From Candidatus Bipolaricaulota bacterium (GTDB lineage: Bacteria; Bipolaricaulota; Bipolaricaulia; UBA7950; UBA9294): a DNA stretch of 34,995 bases. The stretch covers positions 1-34,995 of the forward strand of contig JAPLGD010000039.1 of assembly GCA_026390345.1 (NCBI GenBank). The letters run 5' to 3'. Made by a program: the position numbers and the translations under genes. Shown piece after piece: positions 1 to 11,279 of the stretch (the first letter of the stretch is position 1; each line of letters begins with the position of its first letter). Under the pieces are notes generated by a model. The model worked only from the letters and a program-made list of their open reading frames with translations, was not told the DNA's origin and searched no databases.

Positions 1-132
1 ACGGTATCCTCCGCGATGGATCTCCTTGCCGAACTGGGCATTGCGCGTGAGTTCACGGGCAAGCGTCGAAACCGCTTGTTTGTGTATGACCGCTATCTCG
101 CCATCCTCAACGAGGGCACGGAAGCTCCATAG
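1..132 (+). CDS. Fic-family protein, C-terminal end only (partial)
   Basis: The first frame is open from the window edge and encodes 43 residues before TAG. It ends in a winged-helix-like segment with TGKRRNRLFVYDRYLAILN followed by EGTEAP, which is the typical last stretch of Fic/DOC proteins that carry a C-terminal winged helix. Fic proteins usually transfer AMP from ATP to a hydroxyl side chain of a target protein; the catalytic HPFxxGNG loop would lie upstream, outside the window, so activity cannot be judged. The next recognisable sequence runs on the opposite strand and is degraded, so this gene seems to close an upstream unit. The identification rests on the tail motif alone. Confidence 0.8.
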   Translation, partial: TVSSAMDLLAELGIAREFTGKRRNRLFVYDRYLAILNEGTEAP

Positions 133-2097: not shown

Positions 2098-2553
2098 ATG
2101 GGGCCCGGGCCACGGTACATCCCGAACCAAGACGACATTGCTGCGCGGGTGCTTGACGGCGAAGCCATCATGATCAACCTGGCGAAAGGCATCTACTACA
2201 GCCTCGATGGCGTCGGAGGAAGGATTTGGGAGCTCTTGGAGGAGGGAAGGAGCGCGGCGGAGATGGCCGACGCGATCGCCCTCGAATTCGACGTGACGGC
2301 GGAGCGTGTGCGGGCCGACGTCGACCGGATCCTCCGGGAGCTCGAGGCGGAGGACGCTCTGCGGACCGTCCCCGTCGGTGCCCCGCCTTCCAAGACGACG
2401 CCCCGTGCGCGACTCGCCGCGAAGCGCCCGTATCGAGAACCGAAGCTCACGGTGTACCGCGACATGGCCGACCTGCTTGCCCTCGAACCCCCGACTCCGG
2501 GAACTGACCAGGAGGATCTCTGGGAAGGCTTCGAGACGAAGGCAGATGGCTAG
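2098..2553 (+). CDS. PqqD-like peptide-binding protein with conserved leader-like tail
   Basis: Residues 1-90 of this 151-residue protein form a PqqD-type domain (IPNQDDIAARVLDGEAIMIN, then GIYYSLDGVGGRIWELLEEG, and a helical end typical of RiPP recognition elements). Such domains bind leader peptides and present them to modifying enzymes. A linker rich in Ala, Pro and Arg (91-110) leads to a tail starting KRPYREPKLTVYRDMADLLA at 109. That tail resembles the PxLxxYxDMxxLLxLDPI element attached to, or found beside, other PqqD proteins, and its Y112-x2-P115-x-L117 spacing mimics lasso leaders. AAAGGGG lies 6 nt before the ATG. With two HprK-like genes and a nucleotidyltransferase downstream, it is likely the substrate-recruiting part of the cluster. 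Confidence 0.85.
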   Translation: MGPGPRYIPNQDDIAARVLDGEAIMINLAKGIYYSLDGVGGRIWELLEEGRSAAEMADAIALEFDVTAERVRADVDRILRELEAEDALRTVPVGAPPSKTTPRARLAAKRPYREPKLTVYRDMADLLALEPPTPGTDQEDLWEGFETKADG

Positions 2554-2571: not shown

Positions 2572-3291
2572 ATGCCCGACGATGTGAAACCGCCATCGGT
2601 GAGTTGCATCATCCCGGCCTTCAACGCCGCGCCGTTCGTCGGAGAGGCCATCGAAAGCGCTCTCGAGCAGACCCATCCTCCACAAGAGATCCTTGTCGTC
2701 GATGACGGTTCTACGGATCGCACCGCGGACGTCGTGCGATCATTCGGCACGAGACTCGCCTACTTGCATCAACGTCACCTCGGGGTGGCCGCCGCGATGA
2801 ACGCAGGGGTTCGTGCGGCTTCCGGCACGCACATCGCCTTCCTCAACGCGGACGACCTCTGGCGCCCGGAGAAGCTGGCGCGGCAGACGACGCGGCTCGT
2901 CGAGCGCGCCGACGTCGACCTTTGCTTCACGCAGTACCGCAACTTCTGGGTTCCTGAGCTGGCTGAGGAGGAAGGGCTCCACCAAGGACGCTCCCTCTCC
3001 CAACCGATCTCAGGGTGGAGTGCCTCCACGCTCTTGACCCGCCGAGAGACGTTCGGACGCTTCGGCCTCTTCCAGGAGAGCGCGGCGCAGCAGCACGTGG
3101 AGCTCGTTTGGGCTCTGCATGCCGCGCAGCAGGGCGCGATTGTCGACGTCATCCCCGAAGTCCTCATGGATCGTCGACTGCACCCGGGGAACCTCTCCCG
3201 GAGATGGACCATGGACGATGACTTCTTCAAGCTCGTCAGGACCTGGCGCGACTTCAGGCGGACGGAGAAGGAGGCGTCGGATGAGGAGTGA
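2572..3291 (+). CDS. family 2 glycosyltransferase
   Basis: A 239-residue GT-A fold enzyme. VSCIIPAFNA opens the nucleotide-binding half, VVDDGSTD (about 42-49) is the classic GT2 signature, and NADD (about 92-95) is the metal/nucleotide-binding DxD-type site. HPGNLSRRW near the end is a usual GT2 element. No membrane segment is visible, so it should work at the inner face of the membrane or in the cytosol, moving a sugar from an NDP-sugar to an unknown acceptor. The gene sits 18 nt after pqqD with only a weak ribosome binding site, so it may depend on coupling. Its last 11 nt overlap a small frame that has a strong ribosome binding site. Confidence 0.88.
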   Translation: MPDDVKPPSVSCIIPAFNAAPFVGEAIESALEQTHPPQEILVVDDGSTDRTADVVRSFGTRLAYLHQRHLGVAAAMNAGVRAASGTHIAFLNADDLWRPEKLARQTTRLVERADVDLCFTQYRNFWVPELAEEEGLHQGRSLSQPISGWSASTLLTRRETFGRFGLFQESAAQQHVELVWALHAAQQGAIVDVIPEVLMDRRLHPGNLSRRWTMDDDFFKLVRTWRDFRRTEKEASDEE

Positions 3292-3391
3292 GATCGACAG
3301 GAGGCCGGATCATCCAAACGCCTCTTGGCGGATTTCGTGCGGACGGGAAGCAGCCCGACGGCTTGAGCGAGGAGACAGCCGATGCGCGTGA
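3281..3391 (+). CDS. possible 36-residue small protein bridging GT2 and GT4
   Basis: A small frame begins with ATG inside the last codons of the GT2 gene. AAGGAGG sits 6 nt upstream, one of the best ribosome binding sites in the cluster. It ends 10 nt inside the next glycosyltransferase gene. The peptide starts MRSEIDRRPDHPNASW, is rich in Arg, and has Ser and Cys residues near the end (SCGREA...GDSRCA). I recognise no family. It could be a translated coupler carrying ribosomes across the 90-nt gap, or a peptide substrate of the PqqD/kinase system. It could also be chance, since a GAAGGAGG within Lys-Glu codons is easy to obtain. Confidence 0.35.
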   Translation: MRSEIDRRPDHPNASWRISCGREAARRLERGDSRCA

Positions 3392-4506
3392 TGTTCTGGT
3401 CATCGGTCTTTGCCCCGTCGATCGGAGGAGTGCAGACCATGGCGAGCAGCCTGTTGCTTGCCTTGCGGGAGCGCGGCCACGAGTTCCTCGTGATCACGCA
3501 GCGTGACACTCCCGACCTGCCCGTGGAAGACCAGTACGAAGGCATTGCTGTCCATCGTCTTCCGGTTGCCGCAATTCTGACTGACGTGGATCGACTGATG
3601 AAGGCCCGACGGGAGGTCGTTCGACTGAAGTGCGAGTTCGACCCCGATCTCTTCCACACGGCTGCGCTGAGTGCCAACGACTTCTTCCATCTGACGACCC
3701 TGACAGCGCATCCGGCTCCCTGGCTCGTCTCCCTTCTCGGTGCGTGGCCGAGAAGCTGCGATTCGTTCTTCCACAAGGCCCTCACCCACGCTGATTGGGT
3801 CGTCGCCTGTTCGGCCGCGACGTTGCGGTTGGGCTGCGACCTGGCCCCGGAGATCTCGTCTCGCTCCTCGATCATCTACAACGCACAAGAGCCCATCCCT
3901 GTGCGTCCGCGGCCATTGGGGTTCGATCCACCGGTGTTGCTCTGCCTCGGAAGGCTCTCTCGGGAGAAGGGTGTCGACGTCGCGCTTGCCGCCTTCGCCC
4001 ACGTTCTCGAACGCTTTCCCGAAGCTCGGCTTGTCATCGCCGGCGACGGCCCGGAGCGAGACGCGCTCGAGCGTCAGGCGGAAGAACTGAGCATGGGTGG
4101 TGCCGTTCAGTTTCTGGGATGGGTGCCGCCGAACGACGTGCCTGCGCTCATCAACGCGGCGTCTGTCGTGCTCCTGCCTTCTCGAGAGGACGCCTTTCCC
4201 CTGGTCGGCCTTCAGGCGGCTCTCATGGGGCGTCCGACCGCGGCGAGTTGCGTCGGAGGCATCCCCGAGATGATCGTGGACCGCGAGACAGGCCTTCTCG
4301 TCGAAAGGGAGGATCCAAGGGCATTGGCAGGTGCCGTCGAGAGCCTGCTCGAACGCCCTGACGAAGCGCGCCGGATGGGAGAAGCTGCGCGAAGGAGGGC
4401 ACGCGAGGTATTCAGCTTCGACAAACACGTCGGGGCCTATGACGAGTTGTATCGAACGCTCGTGCGCAACGGGTGCACGACGAACGGCCGCGGGCGATCC
4501 TCATGA
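3382..4506 (+). CDS. family 4 glycosyltransferase, copy A (altered EX7E motif)
   Basis: A 374-residue GT-B enzyme. The N-terminal half starts MRVMFWSSVFAPSIGGVQ, with the glycine loop that faces the acceptor; GRLSREKG (190-197) and AGDGPE (220-225) are the donor-binding elements of GT4. The usual EX7E motif reads D270...Q278, so both acidic positions differ from the canonical form. GAGGAGA lies about 7 nt before the ATG. The next two genes are clear paralogs, alike even at the DNA level at their 5' ends. The fold and family are secure. Donor and acceptor are unknown, and the lost second Glu, which normally holds the donor ribose, makes reduced or altered activity possible. Confidence 0.88.
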   Translation: MRVMFWSSVFAPSIGGVQTMASSLLLALRERGHEFLVITQRDTPDLPVEDQYEGIAVHRLPVAAILTDVDRLMKARREVVRLKCEFDPDLFHTAALSANDFFHLTTLTAHPAPWLVSLLGAWPRSCDSFFHKALTHADWVVACSAATLRLGCDLAPEISSRSSIIYNAQEPIPVRPRPLGFDPPVLLCLGRLSREKGVDVALAAFAHVLERFPEARLVIAGDGPERDALERQAEELSMGGAVQFLGWVPPNDVPALINAASVVLLPSREDAFPLVGLQAALMGRPTAASCVGGIPEMIVDRETGLLVEREDPRALAGAVESLLERPDEARRMGEAARRRAREVFSFDKHVGAYDELYRTLVRNGCTTNGRGRSS

Positions 4507-4528: not shown

Positions 4529-5635
4529 ATGCGAGTGATGTTCTGGTCGTCGGTCTACTGGCCCCACATCGGAGGGGTCCAGGTCTTGGCCCGCCACCTC
4601 TTGCCCGCGCTCGCTGCGCGAGGGCACGAGGTCATCGTCGTGGCCGAGCAGGACCCGCCTGACCTCGCCGCGCAGGAAGACGTCGACGGAATCAGAATCC
4701 TCCGCTTCCCCCTCACTCTCGGGCTGCGAGATATCGACCGACTGACGGACATTCGGCGGGATCTTGCGGACCTACGGCGGCGCTTCGCCCCTGACCTGTG
4801 CCACACGGTGGCCCTCGGCGCGACGGACGTCTACCAGCGGATCACGCAGGATCCGGAGCGTCCTACACCTATTTTGGTCTCGCTTTTCGGGCATTGGCCT
4901 TCGCAGTACACGAGGTTCCTTTCCGGCACGCTGGAGCGAGCCGATTGGATTGCCTGCGATTCGGCGCAGACGCTTGAGTATTCGTACTCGGTCGCCCCGG
5001 GCGCGACGGCACCCCGCTCGGTCATTCGCAATGCGGTTGATGTTCCCACCGTCGTGCCGGCGCCGCTTCCCGATGTGCCCCGATTGCTCGTTGCGGGTCG
5101 CCTTTCCCGTGAGAAGGGAGTGGACCTGGCGCTGCGTGCCTTTGCCCTGGTCTTGCGGCGGTGTCCGTCGGCCCGATTGACCGTGGCTGGCGACGGGCCG
5201 GAGCGCCCCGCCTTAGAGCGATTGGCGACCGAGCTAGGAATCAGCGAGGCAGTGGAGTTCCTCGGCTGGACCGCCCCGGATGAGATCCCCACCCTACTCA
5301 ACGCCGCGTCGGTCCTCGTGCTGCCTTCGCGGGCAGACTCCTTCCCGCTGGTCGGCCTCGAGGCGGCGCTCATGGAGCGTCCGGTCGTCGCGGCCGCCGT
5401 CGGTGGGTTGCCCGAGATGATCGTCCACGAGGAAACCGGAATCCTGGTCAACGCGGAGGATCCGGGCGCGTTGGCGACCGCGGTGGTTCGCCTGATCGAG
5501 GATCCCACGTGGTCCGTGAGACTCGGCCGTGCCGCACGGCAACGGGTGCAAGAGCGTCATCGATTCTCCGACCTCATCGATGCGTATGACGAGCTGTACC
5601 AGCGGGTTGCGCATCGAAGCAAGGGGAGGCCATGA
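4529..5635 (+). CDS. family 4 glycosyltransferase, copy B
   Basis: A 368-residue paralog of the preceding gene. It shares MRVMFWSSV at the start, GGVQ, LVAGRLSREKGVDLAL for donor binding and FLGWTAPDEIP. EX7E reads D270...E278, keeping the second acidic residue and replacing the first by Asp. GGGAG lies about 7 nt before the chosen ATG; this start also aligns exactly with copies A and C, whereas upstream in-frame starts would lie in copy A coding sequence. The gap to copy A is 22 nt. It should transfer a sugar from an NDP-sugar, like its neighbours, possibly as a later step in building one oligosaccharide. Confidence 0.88.
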   Translation: MRVMFWSSVYWPHIGGVQVLARHLLPALAARGHEVIVVAEQDPPDLAAQEDVDGIRILRFPLTLGLRDIDRLTDIRRDLADLRRRFAPDLCHTVALGATDVYQRITQDPERPTPILVSLFGHWPSQYTRFLSGTLERADWIACDSAQTLEYSYSVAPGATAPRSVIRNAVDVPTVVPAPLPDVPRLLVAGRLSREKGVDLALRAFALVLRRCPSARLTVAGDGPERPALERLATELGISEAVEFLGWTAPDEIPTLLNAASVLVLPSRADSFPLVGLEAALMERPVVAAAVGGLPEMIVHEETGILVNAEDPGALATAVVRLIEDPTWSVRLGRAARQRVQERHRFSDLIDAYDELYQRVAHRSKGRP

Positions 5636-6741
5636 TGCGCATCCTCTTCTGGTCCGCGGCGTTTTGGCCCGGCATCGGGGGTGTGCAGAGCGTCGGAGGA
5701 CGACTTGTCCGTTCTCTGTCCGACCGCGGCCACACAATCCACGTGGTGGCGGAGCAGACGTCGGCGAGGATCCCTTTGCAGGAGACCCACGAAGGTGTAG
5801 CGATCACGCGGCTTCCGCTCACCTGGCGGGAACGACAGGGCCTCGACGCCGTGGCCGATGTCGTGCGCACCGTCCGGGAGGTCAAGACGGGGTTCCAGCC
5901 GGATCTCGTCCACATCCACGGCACAAGCGACAGCGATTTCTTCCACCACGCGACGGCGTCCGCTCACCGCGCCCCTCTCCTCGTCACGCTTCACGGTCTG
6001 TGGCCACGGGAGAGGCAGGCGCTCGTCCGACGCACGTTGGAGGCCGCCGATTGGGTGGTCGGGTGCTCGCAAGCCGTTCTCGACGAGGGCCGTCGGCTCG
6101 TGCCGGCGATCGCGACGCGGTCGTGCGTCCTCTATGCCGGGACGATGCCTCCGGTGACGCCCTCTCGGCCGCTGCCGTTCGATCCGCCACGGCTGCTCTT
6201 CCTGGGAAGGCTCTCTCCGGAAAAGGGCGCGGACCTTGCCCTGGAAGCGTTCGCCCACGTCGCAGAGAGGGTTCCGGCGCTGGAGCTTCTCGTCGCGGGG
6301 GACGGAGGCGAACGCGGCCCTCTAGAACGGCGCGCGGCGGAACTGGGTTTGAGCGAGAAGATCCGCTTCCTTGGATGGGTCGATCCCAAGAACGTTTCGG
6401 GACTTCTCAACCGTGTGACGCTCGTCCTGGTCCCGTCTCGCCAGGAGGCGTTCGGGCAAGCCGCGCTCGAGGCAGCGACTGTGGGGCGCCCGGTTGTCGC
6501 CAGCGCCGTGGGAGGACTGCCGGAAATCGTCCGCCACCGCGAGACCGGGCTCCTGCTGGACTCTCGGTCGGCGCAGACGTGGGCGGACGAGATCGTGCGT
6601 CTCCTCGAGTGTCCGGAAGCGGTGGCCGACATGGGGCGCAGGGCGCAAGCGGATGCGCGCACGCGGTTCGACTGGACGGCGACGGTGGACGCGACGGAAG
6701 CTCTGTACGTGCGGATGGTGCAGGCATTCGCGGAGGGGTGA
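5635..6741 (+). CDS. family 4 glycosyltransferase, copy C (canonical EX7E)
   Basis: The third tandem copy also has 368 residues. It begins MRILFWSAAFWPGIGGVQ, has HIHGTSDSDFFHH in the acceptor half, and FLGRLSPEKGAD for donor binding. EX7E is intact, E271...E279, so this is the copy most surely active. The stop of copy B overlaps the start by one base (TGATG). A preceding ATG at 5632 is possible, but GGGGAGG is 5 nt from the 5635 codon and only 2 nt from the other, and the paralogs start with MR. It is followed 7 nt later by the first kinase-like gene, so glycosylation and kinase genes are in one transcription unit. Confidence 0.88.
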   Translation: MRILFWSAAFWPGIGGVQSVGGRLVRSLSDRGHTIHVVAEQTSARIPLQETHEGVAITRLPLTWRERQGLDAVADVVRTVREVKTGFQPDLVHIHGTSDSDFFHHATASAHRAPLLVTLHGLWPRERQALVRRTLEAADWVVGCSQAVLDEGRRLVPAIATRSCVLYAGTMPPVTPSRPLPFDPPRLLFLGRLSPEKGADLALEAFAHVAERVPALELLVAGDGGERGPLERRAAELGLSEKIRFLGWVDPKNVSGLLNRVTLVLVPSRQEAFGQAALEAATVGRPVVASAVGGLPEIVRHRETGLLLDSRSAQTWADEIVRLLECPEAVADMGRRAQADARTRFDWTATVDATEALYVRMVQAFAEG

Positions 6742-6748
6742 AACCGCC

Positions 6749-7822
6749 ATGACGAACGAGGAGCGATTCGTGTCCATGGCCGTCGCGTTCGATGCTGCCC
6801 TAGACCAGTGCCCGAGCCGGGTGCACGAGCAGGCGTACGCGCTCGCAGGTCGGGGCGTAGTCCTGCGCATCGTCGGGGACCGCCTCGCGGAGCGGGTGAC
6901 TCCGGCGCTCGGTCATCTTGCGGATCCCGGAACAGAAGCGGTCCGAACCGAATTGCGCGTTGACCTGTGGGACGAGGCGGAGACCGACGTCGCGCCGGAC
7001 ATCGACCTGCGGCCCGATCCGCTCGGGGTGTCGTCACAGTACAACGCTTCAACCGACGGACGGTTCGTCACGAGTGTCCTCCAGTTCTCGCAGAGCGGCA
7101 TCGATCGCGAGGTGGCGCACATTGTCGGGGCCGTCCAAGACGCGCGGCGGATGACGTTGTATGAGGTCGGCCGTCCGCTCCACGTCCCGCTCAGCCTGTG
7201 GTTCACCGATCGGTCGACCCCTCTCGTTCACGCGGGGTTCGTCGCTGACAAGGACGCAGGCGTCCTCCTGATTGGCGAGAGCGGAGCGGGGAAGACTACG
7301 TCGACCCTCGCGTGTCTTCAGTCCGGCTGGGGATACCTGTCCGACGATCTTGCCGCGCTGGAGACTCGTGATGATGGGACGGCCTGGGGACACAGCGTGT
7401 ACGCATCGGCGTTTGTCGACGGTGGGACGATCGCCCGCGTGGGCAGTGTCTCCGGGATGCTCGTGGACGGGGCGTATCCCTACGAGGACAAGCAGCTGCT
7501 CATTCTTCCCGCCGGGGCGGACGGTCCGCTGCGGATGCGCGCTCGGATTCGTGCGGTGGCTCTGCTTCGGATCTCAACGTCGCCCGCGACACGGTTTCAT
7601 CCGCTGCGGCAGGGAGAGGCTCTTCTCGAGATGCTTCGAGACGGCCTCCAGATTGGCGTGCTCCATCCGGGACGAGCCGGTCTTCAATGCCTGGCCGACT
7701 TGGCAGAGCGGGTCCCGGCGTACCGTGTCGACGTGGGAACAGAGGCCGCCGGAATTCCCGCGGCGTTGCGCACCATGCTTGCCAACGCGGAACGTCCCTC
7801 GCATGTGGAGGAACCCAGATGA
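6749..7822 (+). CDS. HPr kinase-like P-loop protein 1
   Basis: A 357-residue protein whose C-terminal half resembles HprK-related kinases: Walker A GESGAGKTT at 176-184 followed by a helix, and YLSDDLAAL (SDD 198-200) where HprK-type kinases keep the acidic metal/catalytic residues. The N-terminal 150 residues form the poorly conserved domain usual for this group and show no catalytic motif of their own. Relatives beside PqqD-like genes are thought to phosphorylate peptides or proteins rather than HPr; no ptsH is nearby. GGAGGGG precedes the ATG by about 9 nt. The 3' end overlaps the second kinase-like gene by 4 nt (ATGA). Kinase activity is likely; the substrate is inferred. Confidence 0.82.
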   Translation: MTNEERFVSMAVAFDAALDQCPSRVHEQAYALAGRGVVLRIVGDRLAERVTPALGHLADPGTEAVRTELRVDLWDEAETDVAPDIDLRPDPLGVSSQYNASTDGRFVTSVLQFSQSGIDREVAHIVGAVQDARRMTLYEVGRPLHVPLSLWFTDRSTPLVHAGFVADKDAGVLLIGESGAGKTTSTLACLQSGWGYLSDDLAALETRDDGTAWGHSVYASAFVDGGTIARVGSVSGMLVDGAYPYEDKQLLILPAGADGPLRMRARIRAVALLRISTSPATRFHPLRQGEALLEMLRDGLQIGVLHPGRAGLQCLADLAERVPAYRVDVGTEAAGIPAALRTMLANAERPSHVEEPR

Positions 7823-8916
7823 CCCGGCCGATCGCGTTTCGCGGACCTCGTTCAACGTGGCACGGCGGCCCCGAAGCGCGCCTCGCCGAAATGAAGGCGG
7901 GGTTCGCGCAGGCACGTGATCGGCGGCCGGACGAATTCGTCGAGACCTGGGTCGTCCTTGCTGGGATGTCGGTCCGATTGCAGGTCGTGGGGCGGGACCT
8001 TGCGGACGCGCTAGGGATGGCACTCCGCCACCTGGTCGTTGCGAGAGGGGACGGACGGGTGCCGGACCTCGCGATCGCGGCGTGGGACGAGCGCATCTCC
8101 GAAATCGCCGCTCCGGCTGACGCTGGTTCTCTCTGGACGACCGACGAAGGTGGCGTCATCCTCGGCGACGCGGAGGATCGGACTGTGGGACACATCCGCG
8201 ACGGAGTGGAGCTCTGGCTCGAGCGCGACGCGGCGGGCCTGTGGGGCAGCGCCCGGGATGGGACGAACATCGGGCTCCAGAACCGCGGGAAGCCCTTCCA
8301 CGCGCCTCTGCTCGTCTGGCACGCAGATCACGACGTTCCCGTCATGCACGGCGCGCTGGTCGGGTGTGACGGGGCGGGACTTCTGCTGGTCGGGCAAGGT
8401 GGAACCGGGAAGACGACCGCGGCCATGGCCTGCTTCCTCGATGGGTTCGACTTCCTCGGCGACGACTACATCGCGATCGAAGAACCCGCAACGAGGACGT
8501 ATGTTGGGCACAGTCTGTACGATTCCGTATGGTTGACCCGCGATGGGGAGGCCCGCCTGCCAGGCCTCGCGCAATACGCGGAGCCTCCGATACCGACAGG
8601 GGCTCCCAAGCGGCTCGTTCATGCCGCGGCGGTCCACCCGGAGAGAACCCCGCGAGCGGTACGCATCCGCGGCGTTGTCTGTACAGCGTTGGCGGACGGA
8701 GCTGCGCCGGCGATCTCACCCACTACAGGAGCGAAGGCACTGCTCGCCATGGCTCCGACGTCGACGTTGCGGCTTCCCGTCACGGGGGCCCGGTTGATGG
8801 ACCGTATGGCGGCGGTTGCGGAGACCCTGCCGTGCTACGAGTTGCGCGTGGGCGGCGACCTGGCTTCCCTGCCCGGCTTGCTGCGGGGCGTGCTCGAATC
8901 GGGGGATCGGACGTGA
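7819..8916 (+). CDS. HPr kinase-like P-loop protein 2
   Basis: A second, clearly different HprK-like protein of 365 residues. Walker A is GQGGTGKTT (192-200) and the acidic motif FLGDDY (GDD 214-216). NRGKPFHAPLLVWHADHDVPVMHGALVGC before the P-loop matches the layout of the first copy (GRPLHVPLSLWFTD...VHAGFVA), so the two are distant paralogs with the same domain order. GTGGAGG lies about 7 nt before the ATG, and both ends overlap their neighbours (ATGA and GTGA), so all three proteins should be made in step. Two kinases could modify different residues or substrates, or form a heteromer. Both nucleotide sites look intact. Confidence 0.82.
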   Translation: MTRPIAFRGPRSTWHGGPEARLAEMKAGFAQARDRRPDEFVETWVVLAGMSVRLQVVGRDLADALGMALRHLVVARGDGRVPDLAIAAWDERISEIAAPADAGSLWTTDEGGVILGDAEDRTVGHIRDGVELWLERDAAGLWGSARDGTNIGLQNRGKPFHAPLLVWHADHDVPVMHGALVGCDGAGLLLVGQGGTGKTTAAMACFLDGFDFLGDDYIAIEEPATRTYVGHSLYDSVWLTRDGEARLPGLAQYAEPPIPTGAPKRLVHAAAVHPERTPRAVRIRGVVCTALADGAAPAISPTTGAKALLAMAPTSTLRLPVTGARLMDRMAAVAETLPCYELRVGGDLASLPGLLRGVLESGDRT

Positions 8917-11279
8917 GACGTGCGAAGCAGGACCCGGGTCGTGAGCCGACGCTCTCCGACACGCTGTCCGTCCTCCTGCCGGACGCGCGCGATACCGAGC
9001 TTCTGCGCGCCGCGCTGGCCCCCGGATCCGAAGGGCGGGATAGCTGGGTTCGCTGGCGGGAGGGCGTCCACGACGTGAGGTCGGCGCTCGCCGAAGGGCG
9101 CCCGGTGCTTGCGCATCTGCTCCCGCTCCTCCACGCCAACACGCGGCGCAACGGCGCGGAGGTGGACGAAGAGTTTCGTCTTGCCATGGCGGTCGCGACC
9201 CTGCAAGAGGAGCGCCGCGTGGAGTCCGTGTTCGAGATCCTTGCCGATGCGCTGGAGATCCTGAAAGCGGCGGGGGTCGACGCGACAGTTCTCAAGGGGA
9301 CTGCGCTGGCAGCGTCTGTGTACCCTGCTAAGGCGCTCCGGCACTGCCACGACATCGATCTCCTTGTTTCGTCAGACCGGCTCGCCCATGCAGAAGAGGC
9401 CTTGATCCAATCGGGCCGATACCGCTCTTTGGAGAAGGATCCATCGGGTTCGGATCGGCGCGTCGTGCACGCATCGGGCCTTCCTCTTGAACTCCACAGC
9501 CGGTTGCTCCGCTTCTCCTCCGACAAGCAGGCCGAGGAGGCCGTCCTCGTACGGCGTCAGGCGCAGCGGAGTGGTGGTCAGGCGTTTTCGATCCTGCCCT
9601 CGGGCGACGCGCTATGGCATGTCTGGGGGCACGCGGCGTCGGGCGGAAACCGGGGCACGCTGCAGTGGGTTGCAGACGCTTGGCACCTCATTGGGCGATT
9701 CACCCCGGCCGACTGGGAAGCGTTCCGCGCCGGCGTCTGCGAGATGGGACAGGCTCTCCCGGCGTACGTTTGCCTGCGGTATCTGTCTCGGACGTTGGGC
9801 GCGAAGGTGCCGGACTCAGAGCTTCGCTTTCTGCAGGGCGCAGCGCAGCACGTCGGACGACGAGCGCGGGACAGAGCCCTCGCCGGCGCCTTGCACGGCG
9901 GCCGAACAAGCCTTCACGACCTCCGAGCTGCTACACGAAGCGTTCGCTCCCGCCTGTCCTTCATCCGATGGCGAGTTCTTCCCTCGCGGGACTACCTCGC
10001 CACGATCTATCCTGAGAGCAGCCGCCTAGGGTTGTGGGCGCTCTACCTAAAGCGGATTCTGAACTACGCTTTCCGGCCGATCCGGCACGCGGCGCGTCGA
10101 CGGAGATCCGGGGTCTTGCCCCGACGTCCGTGGATGCCTACGGAGCGCCAGGCGCTCCTCGTACGGGCCGCCCTTCTCAACGGAGAGCCGGCAATCGACG
10201 CGTGGAGCCGATGGAAGGCGGCCGGCGACGTCGAGCATATCGATGACGGGTCATCGGCCCTGCTGCCTCTGGTTTACCGAAACCTCGCCGATCTCGGGGT
10301 GAGCGATCCTATGGTCAAGCGCGCTCAGCAAGCCTATAAGATCACGTGGCTCGAGAATGAGCGACGGTTCCGTGAGATCGCTGGCCTTCTCGAGGCGCTC
10401 AACGCCGCGGGAATCGAGACGATGCTCCTGAAAGGCGCTGCCCTCGCGCTCCTCTACTACCGAGATCTCGGGCTTCGTTCCATGGGCGATGTCGATCTTC
10501 TCGTGCGTCCAGAGCGAGTACGCGACGCAGTCGCCCTCCTACAGACCCGCGGATTCCGCGTGCTGCGGCACTCCGCAAGCGTGCTGACGGACGTTCACCT
10601 GCTCTCGCGAAAGGCCATCAACCTCGCCTCGGAGACCGTACCGAAGCTCGATCTCCACTGGCGAGTCATGCGAGAGATCCGTTCGGAAAGCGAAGAAGCA
10701 GCGTTCTGGGAGTCCGCGACGCCAGTCGCTCTCTGCGGCGTGCCAACCCGAGCGATGAATGCGGCAGATCAGGTCCTTCACGTCTGCGTCCACGAAGCGC
10801 GGTGGTGCCCGTCTCCCCTTCCTCGTTGGATGACGGACGTCGCGGTGATCCTCCGAGAGACGGGGAGCGCGTTTGATGCGGCTCGACTCGTAGAGCGCGC
10901 ACGTTGCCTCGAGTTGGTCAGTCCAGTGAAGGAGGCACTCGAATGCCTCGCGGCGAACGTTCCTGCCGTGGTGCCCGTTGAGCTTGTGCGTGCCTTTGGC
11001 GAGGTTTCTCCGACGCGACGGGACGAGCGCGAGTACGCCGTGCGCTGCCGCAGGTCTGGAGCTCTTGGAATCCTACGGGATGAGTACGTCATCTACCGGG
11101 ACACGACGCGCGGTCAGAGCGCAGTCCGGCGATGGCTCGGCTTCTCCCGGTACCTCCAGGCTTTGTGGGGACTTAGCGGTCTCTGGCAGGTCGCAGCGCA
11201 CGCTGTGGCCTGGAGATGGCGTGCCATCTCCAGGAGCAACGTGGGAAGCGGCGAACGGCCGCACCGCAGACGGAACTGA
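8913..11279 (+). CDS. double-domain nucleotidyltransferase (NTP_transf_5-like, fused tandem)
   Basis: A 788-residue protein made of two copies of the family-5 nucleotidyltransferase-like domain. Domain 1 (about 15-400) has VLKGTALA at 126-133 and HDIDLLV with DID 147-149; domain 2 (about 408-788) has LLKGAALA at 505-512 and GDVDLLV with DVD 526-528. Both also keep the LLPLL/LLPLVYRNL segment typical of the N-terminal part, so neither half is truncated. Members normally have one such domain, about 350-400 residues. The GTG start overlaps the kinase stop (GTGA). In lasso-peptide clusters a protein of this family acts after the HprK-like kinase to decorate the phosphorylated peptide, which suggests a similar order here. 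Substrate unknown. Confidence 0.83.
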   Translation: MRRAKQDPGREPTLSDTLSVLLPDARDTELLRAALAPGSEGRDSWVRWREGVHDVRSALAEGRPVLAHLLPLLHANTRRNGAEVDEEFRLAMAVATLQEERRVESVFEILADALEILKAAGVDATVLKGTALAASVYPAKALRHCHDIDLLVSSDRLAHAEEALIQSGRYRSLEKDPSGSDRRVVHASGLPLELHSRLLRFSSDKQAEEAVLVRRQAQRSGGQAFSILPSGDALWHVWGHAASGGNRGTLQWVADAWHLIGRFTPADWEAFRAGVCEMGQALPAYVCLRYLSRTLGAKVPDSELRFLQGAAQHVGRRARDRALAGALHGGRTSLHDLRAATRSVRSRLSFIRWRVLPSRDYLATIYPESSRLGLWALYLKRILNYAFRPIRHAARRRRSGVLPRRPWMPTERQALLVRAALLNGEPAIDAWSRWKAAGDVEHIDDGSSALLPLVYRNLADLGVSDPMVKRAQQAYKITWLENERRFREIAGLLEALNAAGIETMLLKGAALALLYYRDLGLRSMGDVDLLVRPERVRDAVALLQTRGFRVLRHSASVLTDVHLLSRKAINLASETVPKLDLHWRVMREIRSESEEAAFWESATPVALCGVPTRAMNAADQVLHVCVHEARWCPSPLPRWMTDVAVILRETGSAFDAARLVERARCLELVSPVKEALECLAANVPAVVPVELVRAFGEVSPTRRDEREYAVRCRRSGALGILRDEYVIYRDTTRGQSAVRRWLGFSRYLQALWGLSGLWQVAAHAVAWRWRAISRSNVGSGERPHRRRN

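Follow-up and report, generated by a model that had tools for sequence, protein, structure and literature searches.

A PqqD-type recognition domain with a conserved leader-like tail in cis, encoded beside HprK-like kinases and sugar-transfer genes

The window considered here, that is, the whole stretch of 34,995 nucleotides analysed from a Candidatus Bipolaricaulota bacterium, holds an operon on one strand (plus) that encodes a PqqD/RRE protein with a C-terminal leader-like tail (2098-2553), a family 2 glycosyltransferase (GT2; 2572-3291; PF00535, E=1e-30), three GT4-like enzymes, two HprK-like kinases, and an NTP_transf_5 nucleotidyltransferase. The GT4-like enzyme at 3382-4506 is a group 1 glycosyltransferase (PF00534, E=3.7e-41), to which the open reading frame at 4529-5635 is similar in sequence, and a further one at 5632-6741, overlapping the preceding gene by 4 bp, resembles both of them. 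The two kinases (6749-7822 and 7819-8916) present the His, the P-loop, and the Asp-Asp, with matches to Hpr_kinase_C that fall under the Pfam cut-off (E=1.9e-5 and E=2.1e-7, respectively). Both kinase genes and the nucleotidyltransferase gene (8913-11279; PF14907, E=2.7e-75) have overlapping ends: the ATG of the second kinase overlaps the stop of the first, and NTP_transf_5 probably starts at a GTG overlapping the second kinase. This nucleotidyltransferase is matched in two stretches, possibly the result of a tandem duplication. No ABC transporter was seen in the window operon. The window carries two adjacent HprK-like kinases (6749-8916), while most relatives carry one.

The PqqD gene starts with an ATG at 2098, with AAAGGGG upstream, and stops at 2551-2553, encoding a protein of 151 aa. 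Its PqqD/RRE domain (residues 22-86; 2161-2355) matches PF05402 (E=9e-17) with 61.6 bits, exceeding the gathering score of 23.4, and also matches the winged-helix RRE fold. It is followed by an unconserved linker (residues 91-108; 2368-2421) and by the tail KRPYREPKLTVYRDMADLLALEPPTPG (2422-2502). On the basis of AlphaFold and conservation, a leader-like docking segment, KRPYREPKLTVYRDMADLLA, was delimited at residues 109-128 (2422-2481), with a strand at 117-120 and a helix at 123-127, while comparison with its branch set apart the distal tail LEPPTPGTDQEDLWEGFETKADG, with L129 before it (2482-2550). A preliminary description had located a leader-like tail in cis at 2410-2550, an interval in which the docking segment does lie, and the Tyr-x2-Pro-x-Leu spacing that it reported is present as Tyr112-x-x-Pro115-x-Leu117. 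As for the PxLxxYxDMxxLLxLDPI element also claimed there, PxLxxYxDMxxLL is found, but the tail in the window ends in LEPPTPG rather than in the LDPI of most relatives, whose distal tail reads LDPIHEVDxxGWP. A bare YxxPx[LVIFA] represents weak evidence, because it has 27 matches in the six-frame translation of the window (52,937 residues); PxLxxYxDMxxLL occurs only once in the same translation. Judged from its sequence, the tail motif of the window PqqD exceeds chance.

A tail-only query (39 aa) scanned against 84,980 species genomes yielded 125 relatives, the best 80 of which were inspected. In 80/80 of these, the tail lies about 110 residues into one open reading frame, L056 being exceptional in that the open frame before the tail is shorter (81 codons), and Pfam PqqD is present in 78 of the 79 tailed proteins scanned. 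Stand-alone tails were seen neither at the 80 inspected loci nor in six-frame translations of the fetched loci. According to the record titles of the best 80 of the 125 relatives, the tailed PqqD spans more than 10 phyla, the named groups being Cyanobacteria, Chloroflexi, Bacteroidetes, Acidobacteria, Proteobacteria, Planctomycetes, Nitrospirae, Gemmatimonadetes, Bacillota, Lentisphaerae, Ignavibacteria, and Bipolaricaulota. For three other phyla, the genome search drew on a sample of about 250-300 genomes per phylum, and genes in GC-rich contigs were called mechanically.

Alignment of the PqqD tails across relatives, proposed in the preliminary description, revealed conservation instead of variability: among 81 homologues, the mean information is 3.85 bits for tail columns 121-131 and 3.54 bits for columns 132-143, versus 2.21 bits for the PqqD domain and 0.77 bits per column for the linker. 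By this measure of sequence, the tail is more conserved than the PqqD domain across more than 10 phyla. The family consensus is FxxPxLxKY[TS]DM[QE][DE]LLLLDPIHEVDxxGWP, with x at some of these sites in a looser form. A minor branch composed of the window, its sister L005, L110, L120, and L159 shows the consensus YxxPxLxVYxDMxxLLALDPPxP, a grouping with 94% SH-aLRT on a short alignment. In a congeneric genome, the PqqD protein is 87% identical to that of the window and residues 109-138 are identical; the codons of residues 108-134 differ by 6 synonymous changes and 1 non-synonymous change, those of residues 1-88 by 18 and 13, respectively. A distant homologue from the same family of Candidatus Bipolaricaulota (L006/L011) holds the tail FRKPALSKYSDMQELLLLDPIHEVDETGWP, with an HprK-like gene and a glycosyltransferase downstream. 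In a second genome of the window's genus (G001, 88% complete), the tailed PqqD protein has no match, so its distribution within the genus is patchy. No tailed relatives were found in viral contigs and phages. In the cyanobacterial genus Crinalium, a mobilizable plasmid (NC_019735.1:5896-8559) encodes a PqqD-tail protein, a nucleotidyltransferase, and an HPr kinase, a hint of horizontal transfer.

The association with HprK-like kinases put forward in the preliminary description extends to 70 of 82 loci of tailed PqqD, many of which are cut by contig ends; GT2 enzymes are encoded in 69/82, NTP_transf_5 in 57/82, and ABC transporters in 37/82. The strict catalytic residues of the kinase (His, P-loop, Asp-Asp) were identified in 52 loci. 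In Planctomycetales, one open reading frame of 655 aa (L109/L163:6223-8187, minus strand) fuses PqqD, tail, and HprK-like kinase. In Bacteroidetes, an HprK-like kinase is fused to glycosyltransferase family 2 domains (L047:11749-14343, plus strand; also L040 and L064).

No separate precursor for the tailed PqqD was found in 80 loci, where no family of leader-bearing small ORFs was seen and where small ORFs with the leader motif are as frequent as after shuffling (290 observed versus 293). Candidates for conserved small precursor ORFs proved to be antisense shadows of conserved genes. Although the preliminary description had compared the tail to lasso leaders, a lasso pathway is ruled out for the window genome by the absence of the B2 leader peptidase (PF13471); this genome holds a single PqqD, which scores below the cut-off of the lasso PqqD models. 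The window genome gives no match to the SpI-like (archaeal-type) leader peptidase TIGR02228, which in 18 relatives is never near the tailed PqqD, no lasso/LPP-type protease being encoded in the tailed-PqqD operon. A macrolactam cyclase (asparagine-synthetase-like) was not recognised among the frequent neighbour clusters. Lasso B2 is present in some genomes with tailed PqqD, several times adjoining untailed PqqDs. In two of them (G104:C3 and G109:C115), about 10 kb and about 5 kb, respectively, separate the tailed PqqD from an untailed one accompanied by lasso B2, as though two related pathways stood side by side.

The structure of the full protein was predicted by AlphaFold from an alignment of 79 rows. 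The pLDDT is 92-96 in the domain, 68-72 in the linker, and 95 at residues 111-120, and falls to about 50 beyond residue 130. The homologue from the cyanobacterium Coleofasciculus (L013) gave the same picture, with high confidence in the tail strand and a floppy linker ahead of it. From paired single-residue strands, isolated bridges can be deduced at 64-110 in the window model and at 65-115 in that of L013. It has been reported that LppB Glu61 holds the LppA leader two residues before the leader Tyr, and that LppB residues 27-33 pair with the leader (PMC13381572). In an ungapped alignment, these correspond to window residues 65 and 31-37, and the backbone bridge of both models falls at the site where Glu61 grips the leader. 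The nearest solved structures to the window domain are TbiB1, PbaB1, TfuB1, and LppB, TbiB1 being the best match in VIA-align (Z 12.1 for the window model and 14.0 for L013). In both models, the superposition onto NisB chain 4wd9_B, which also contains the NisA leader (positions 992-1006 of the 4wd9 sequence), runs on through the tail (3..124 for the window, 1..128 for L013), so docking in the groove is predicted; with NisB 6m7y_B, whose peptide is in a separate chain, the alignment ends at model residue 92. Neither of the results that would have counted against the preliminary description, a variable tail or docking far from the peptide-binding groove, was obtained: for the tail in the window and L013 models, docking in the RRE groove of its own chain is predicted, although AlphaFold training probably included RRE-leader complexes.

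The counterpart of LppB Asp70, the residue that bonds the leader tyrosine (PMC13381572), is window Asp74. This residue is present in 7 of 9 unique rows of Tyr-tailed proteins versus 2 of 81 Phe-tailed ones (Fisher p 1.7e-7). The lineages with both Tyr and Asp are the window's minor branch, L076, and L109, with L031 and L073 as exceptions. On the tree, the covariation of Y112 and Asp74 comes down to about four changes, and it loses significance when kinship is taken into account, for which reason this sequence pattern is suggestive only.

The most conserved hydroxyl of the tail is at residue 121, which is Ser or Thr in 90 of 99 tailed homologues. In the window this residue is Arg, which rules out an obligatory phosphorylation of S/T121 in its protein, and D, E, N, or H occupy the position in other relatives, so S/T121 is not an obligatory phospho-acceptor; no hydroxyl of the tail is invariant among the 99 tailed homologues. 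The earlier suggestion that the tail is the substrate of the kinases is weakened by the Arg found at the favoured position, and for the window protein a phosphorylated tail lacks support.

The nearest described pathway is that of the linear polyphosphorylated peptides (LPP; LppB/LppA/LppK/LppN, PMC13381572), but there the precursor is separate and has a variable core, while here the leader-like part is in cis and the peptide is nearly invariant. Both systems have a discrete lasso-type RRE, an HprK-like kinase, an NTP transferase, and a YxxPx[V/L] leader motif, set among glycosyltransferases; the ABC transporters encoded in 37 of 82 tailed-PqqD loci may correspond to the MsbA-like transporter of LPP. 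The combination of an HprK-like kinase and an NTP transferase beside a discrete RRE is found in the window. In contrast to the tailed-PqqD operon, LPP includes an SpI-like leader peptidase, and it has been described as restricted to Bacillota (PMC13381572). Phosphorylated lasso peptides of the paeninodin/pseudomycoidin type also rely on an RRE, an HprK-like kinase, and a nucleotidyltransferase, which phosphorylate and glycosylate the peptide (PMC9266682), but the window genome has no B2 protease, and no separate precursor was found. The RRE-leader complexes of TbiB1 and TfuB1 (5v1v and 6jx3) share the fold (Z 12.1 and 10.8) and the aromatic-x-x-P-x-L recognition, but there the leader is bound in trans. 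The HPr-rel-A system likewise pairs an HprK-related kinase with a PqqD-family partner, although its models are far under the cut-off here (TIGR04352, 32.4 of 200 bits; TIGR04353, 13.9 of 35 bits). In self-substrate enzymes of the borosin type, the substrate peptide is found at the C-terminus of the recognising protein, with a domain and a chemistry unrelated to those of PqqD-tail.

According to the mechanism that we propose, a lasso/LPP-type RiPP recognition element (RRE) would be connected through a flexible linker to a leader-like segment of its own, the Y/F-x-x-P-x-L part of which is predicted to add a beta strand in the groove of that chain. The short helix and the distal tail would protrude as a built-in peptide, to be recognised and most likely modified by the HprK-like kinases, NTP_transf_5, and the glycosyltransferases. 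This would be an LPP-like phospho-glyco-peptide system in which a single polypeptide combines the RRE with a precursor-like segment, the operon encodes no leader peptidase, and the peptide is invariant. That the distal tail serves as a substrate or handle in cis for the operon enzymes is, in our judgement, evenly balanced. It is favoured by the Planctomycetales fusion, by the frequency of HprK-like kinases and NTP_transf_5 in the loci, by the confinement of the tails to ORFs of PqqD length, and by small ORFs carrying the leader motif at the shuffled rate. The tail strand and bridge of both models, their NisB/NisA alignment, and the distribution of Asp74 between Tyr- and Phe-tailed proteins also speak for it, as does the fact that related HprK-like kinases and nucleotidyltransferases phosphorylate and glycosylate RRE-guided lasso/LPP peptides (PMC9266682, PMC13381572). 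Against it count the near-invariance of the distal tail, unlike a RiPP core, the operon devoid of a lasso/LPP-type protease, the lack of an invariant tail hydroxyl, and, for the docking, the probable composition of the AlphaFold training set. Such near-invariance, as far as sequences indicate, is more what would be expected of a fixed carrier or a docking motif than of a diversified natural product. The more specific proposal of a widespread, undescribed, self-contained RiPP-like class, in which RRE and precursor form one protein, with the tail docked in cis and its near-invariant end phosphorylated and glycosylated to carry or anchor a surface or secreted glycoconjugate instead of being cut into a diverse natural product, is tentative and falls short of an even chance.

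Some of the same evidence suits an adaptor, in which the tail would be a docking motif for the kinase and the transferases, the true substrate would be a glycan, a lipid, or a peptide encoded elsewhere, and the cis-docked leader would keep the RRE loaded. Engineered synthetase-leader fusions act constitutively on leaderless substrates, a situation that can be likened to a permanently loaded RRE. An invariant tail with predicted disorder past residue 130, a dispensable S/T121, operons rich in glycosyltransferases, and the Bacteroidetes kinase-GT2 fusion agree with this possibility, which we nonetheless find somewhat doubtful, since the closest studied kinases of the group act on RRE-guided peptides (PMC13381572, PMC9266682) and no other substrate has been identified. 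It is unlikely that the tail instead insulates the domain, blocking the groove against leaders of other pathways until the right partner alone displaces it. The predicted occupation of the groove and the genomes that also hold untailed lasso-type PqqDs, some adjoining B2 genes, would be consistent with such self-masking, but the window genome, with a single PqqD and without B2, shows nothing from which to be insulated, and the invariance of the distal half would be left unexplained. Finally, the domain is closest to lasso B1 proteins, as would be expected if the protein were an RRE for lasso peptides and its C-terminal extension were incidental; this is highly improbable, as it is contradicted by a tail conserved above its domain in so many phyla, and both the missing B2 and the lasso PqqD models under their cut-off oppose it.

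RRE domains are known to bind leaders in trans or to occur as fusions with enzymes; an RRE joined to its own leader-like segment, conserved in more than 10 phyla and linked to HprK-like kinases, would be a new architecture, and would explain PqqD/HprK/NTP_transf_5 loci with no recognisable precursor. The conservation of the tail-PqqD pairing beside kinase and sugar-transfer genes points to an undescribed self-contained peptide-modification system. Three tails gave no match even at E 10 against Pfam/NCBIfam models, including those for precursors and leaders, and the tail core strings were not found in the literature searched, which makes the tail motif a ready search handle. Two loci, L082:7665-8162 (GWPNVDDKKGWP) and L068:7695-8156 (GWPMPKGETAAWP), have a tail whose GWP end occurs twice.
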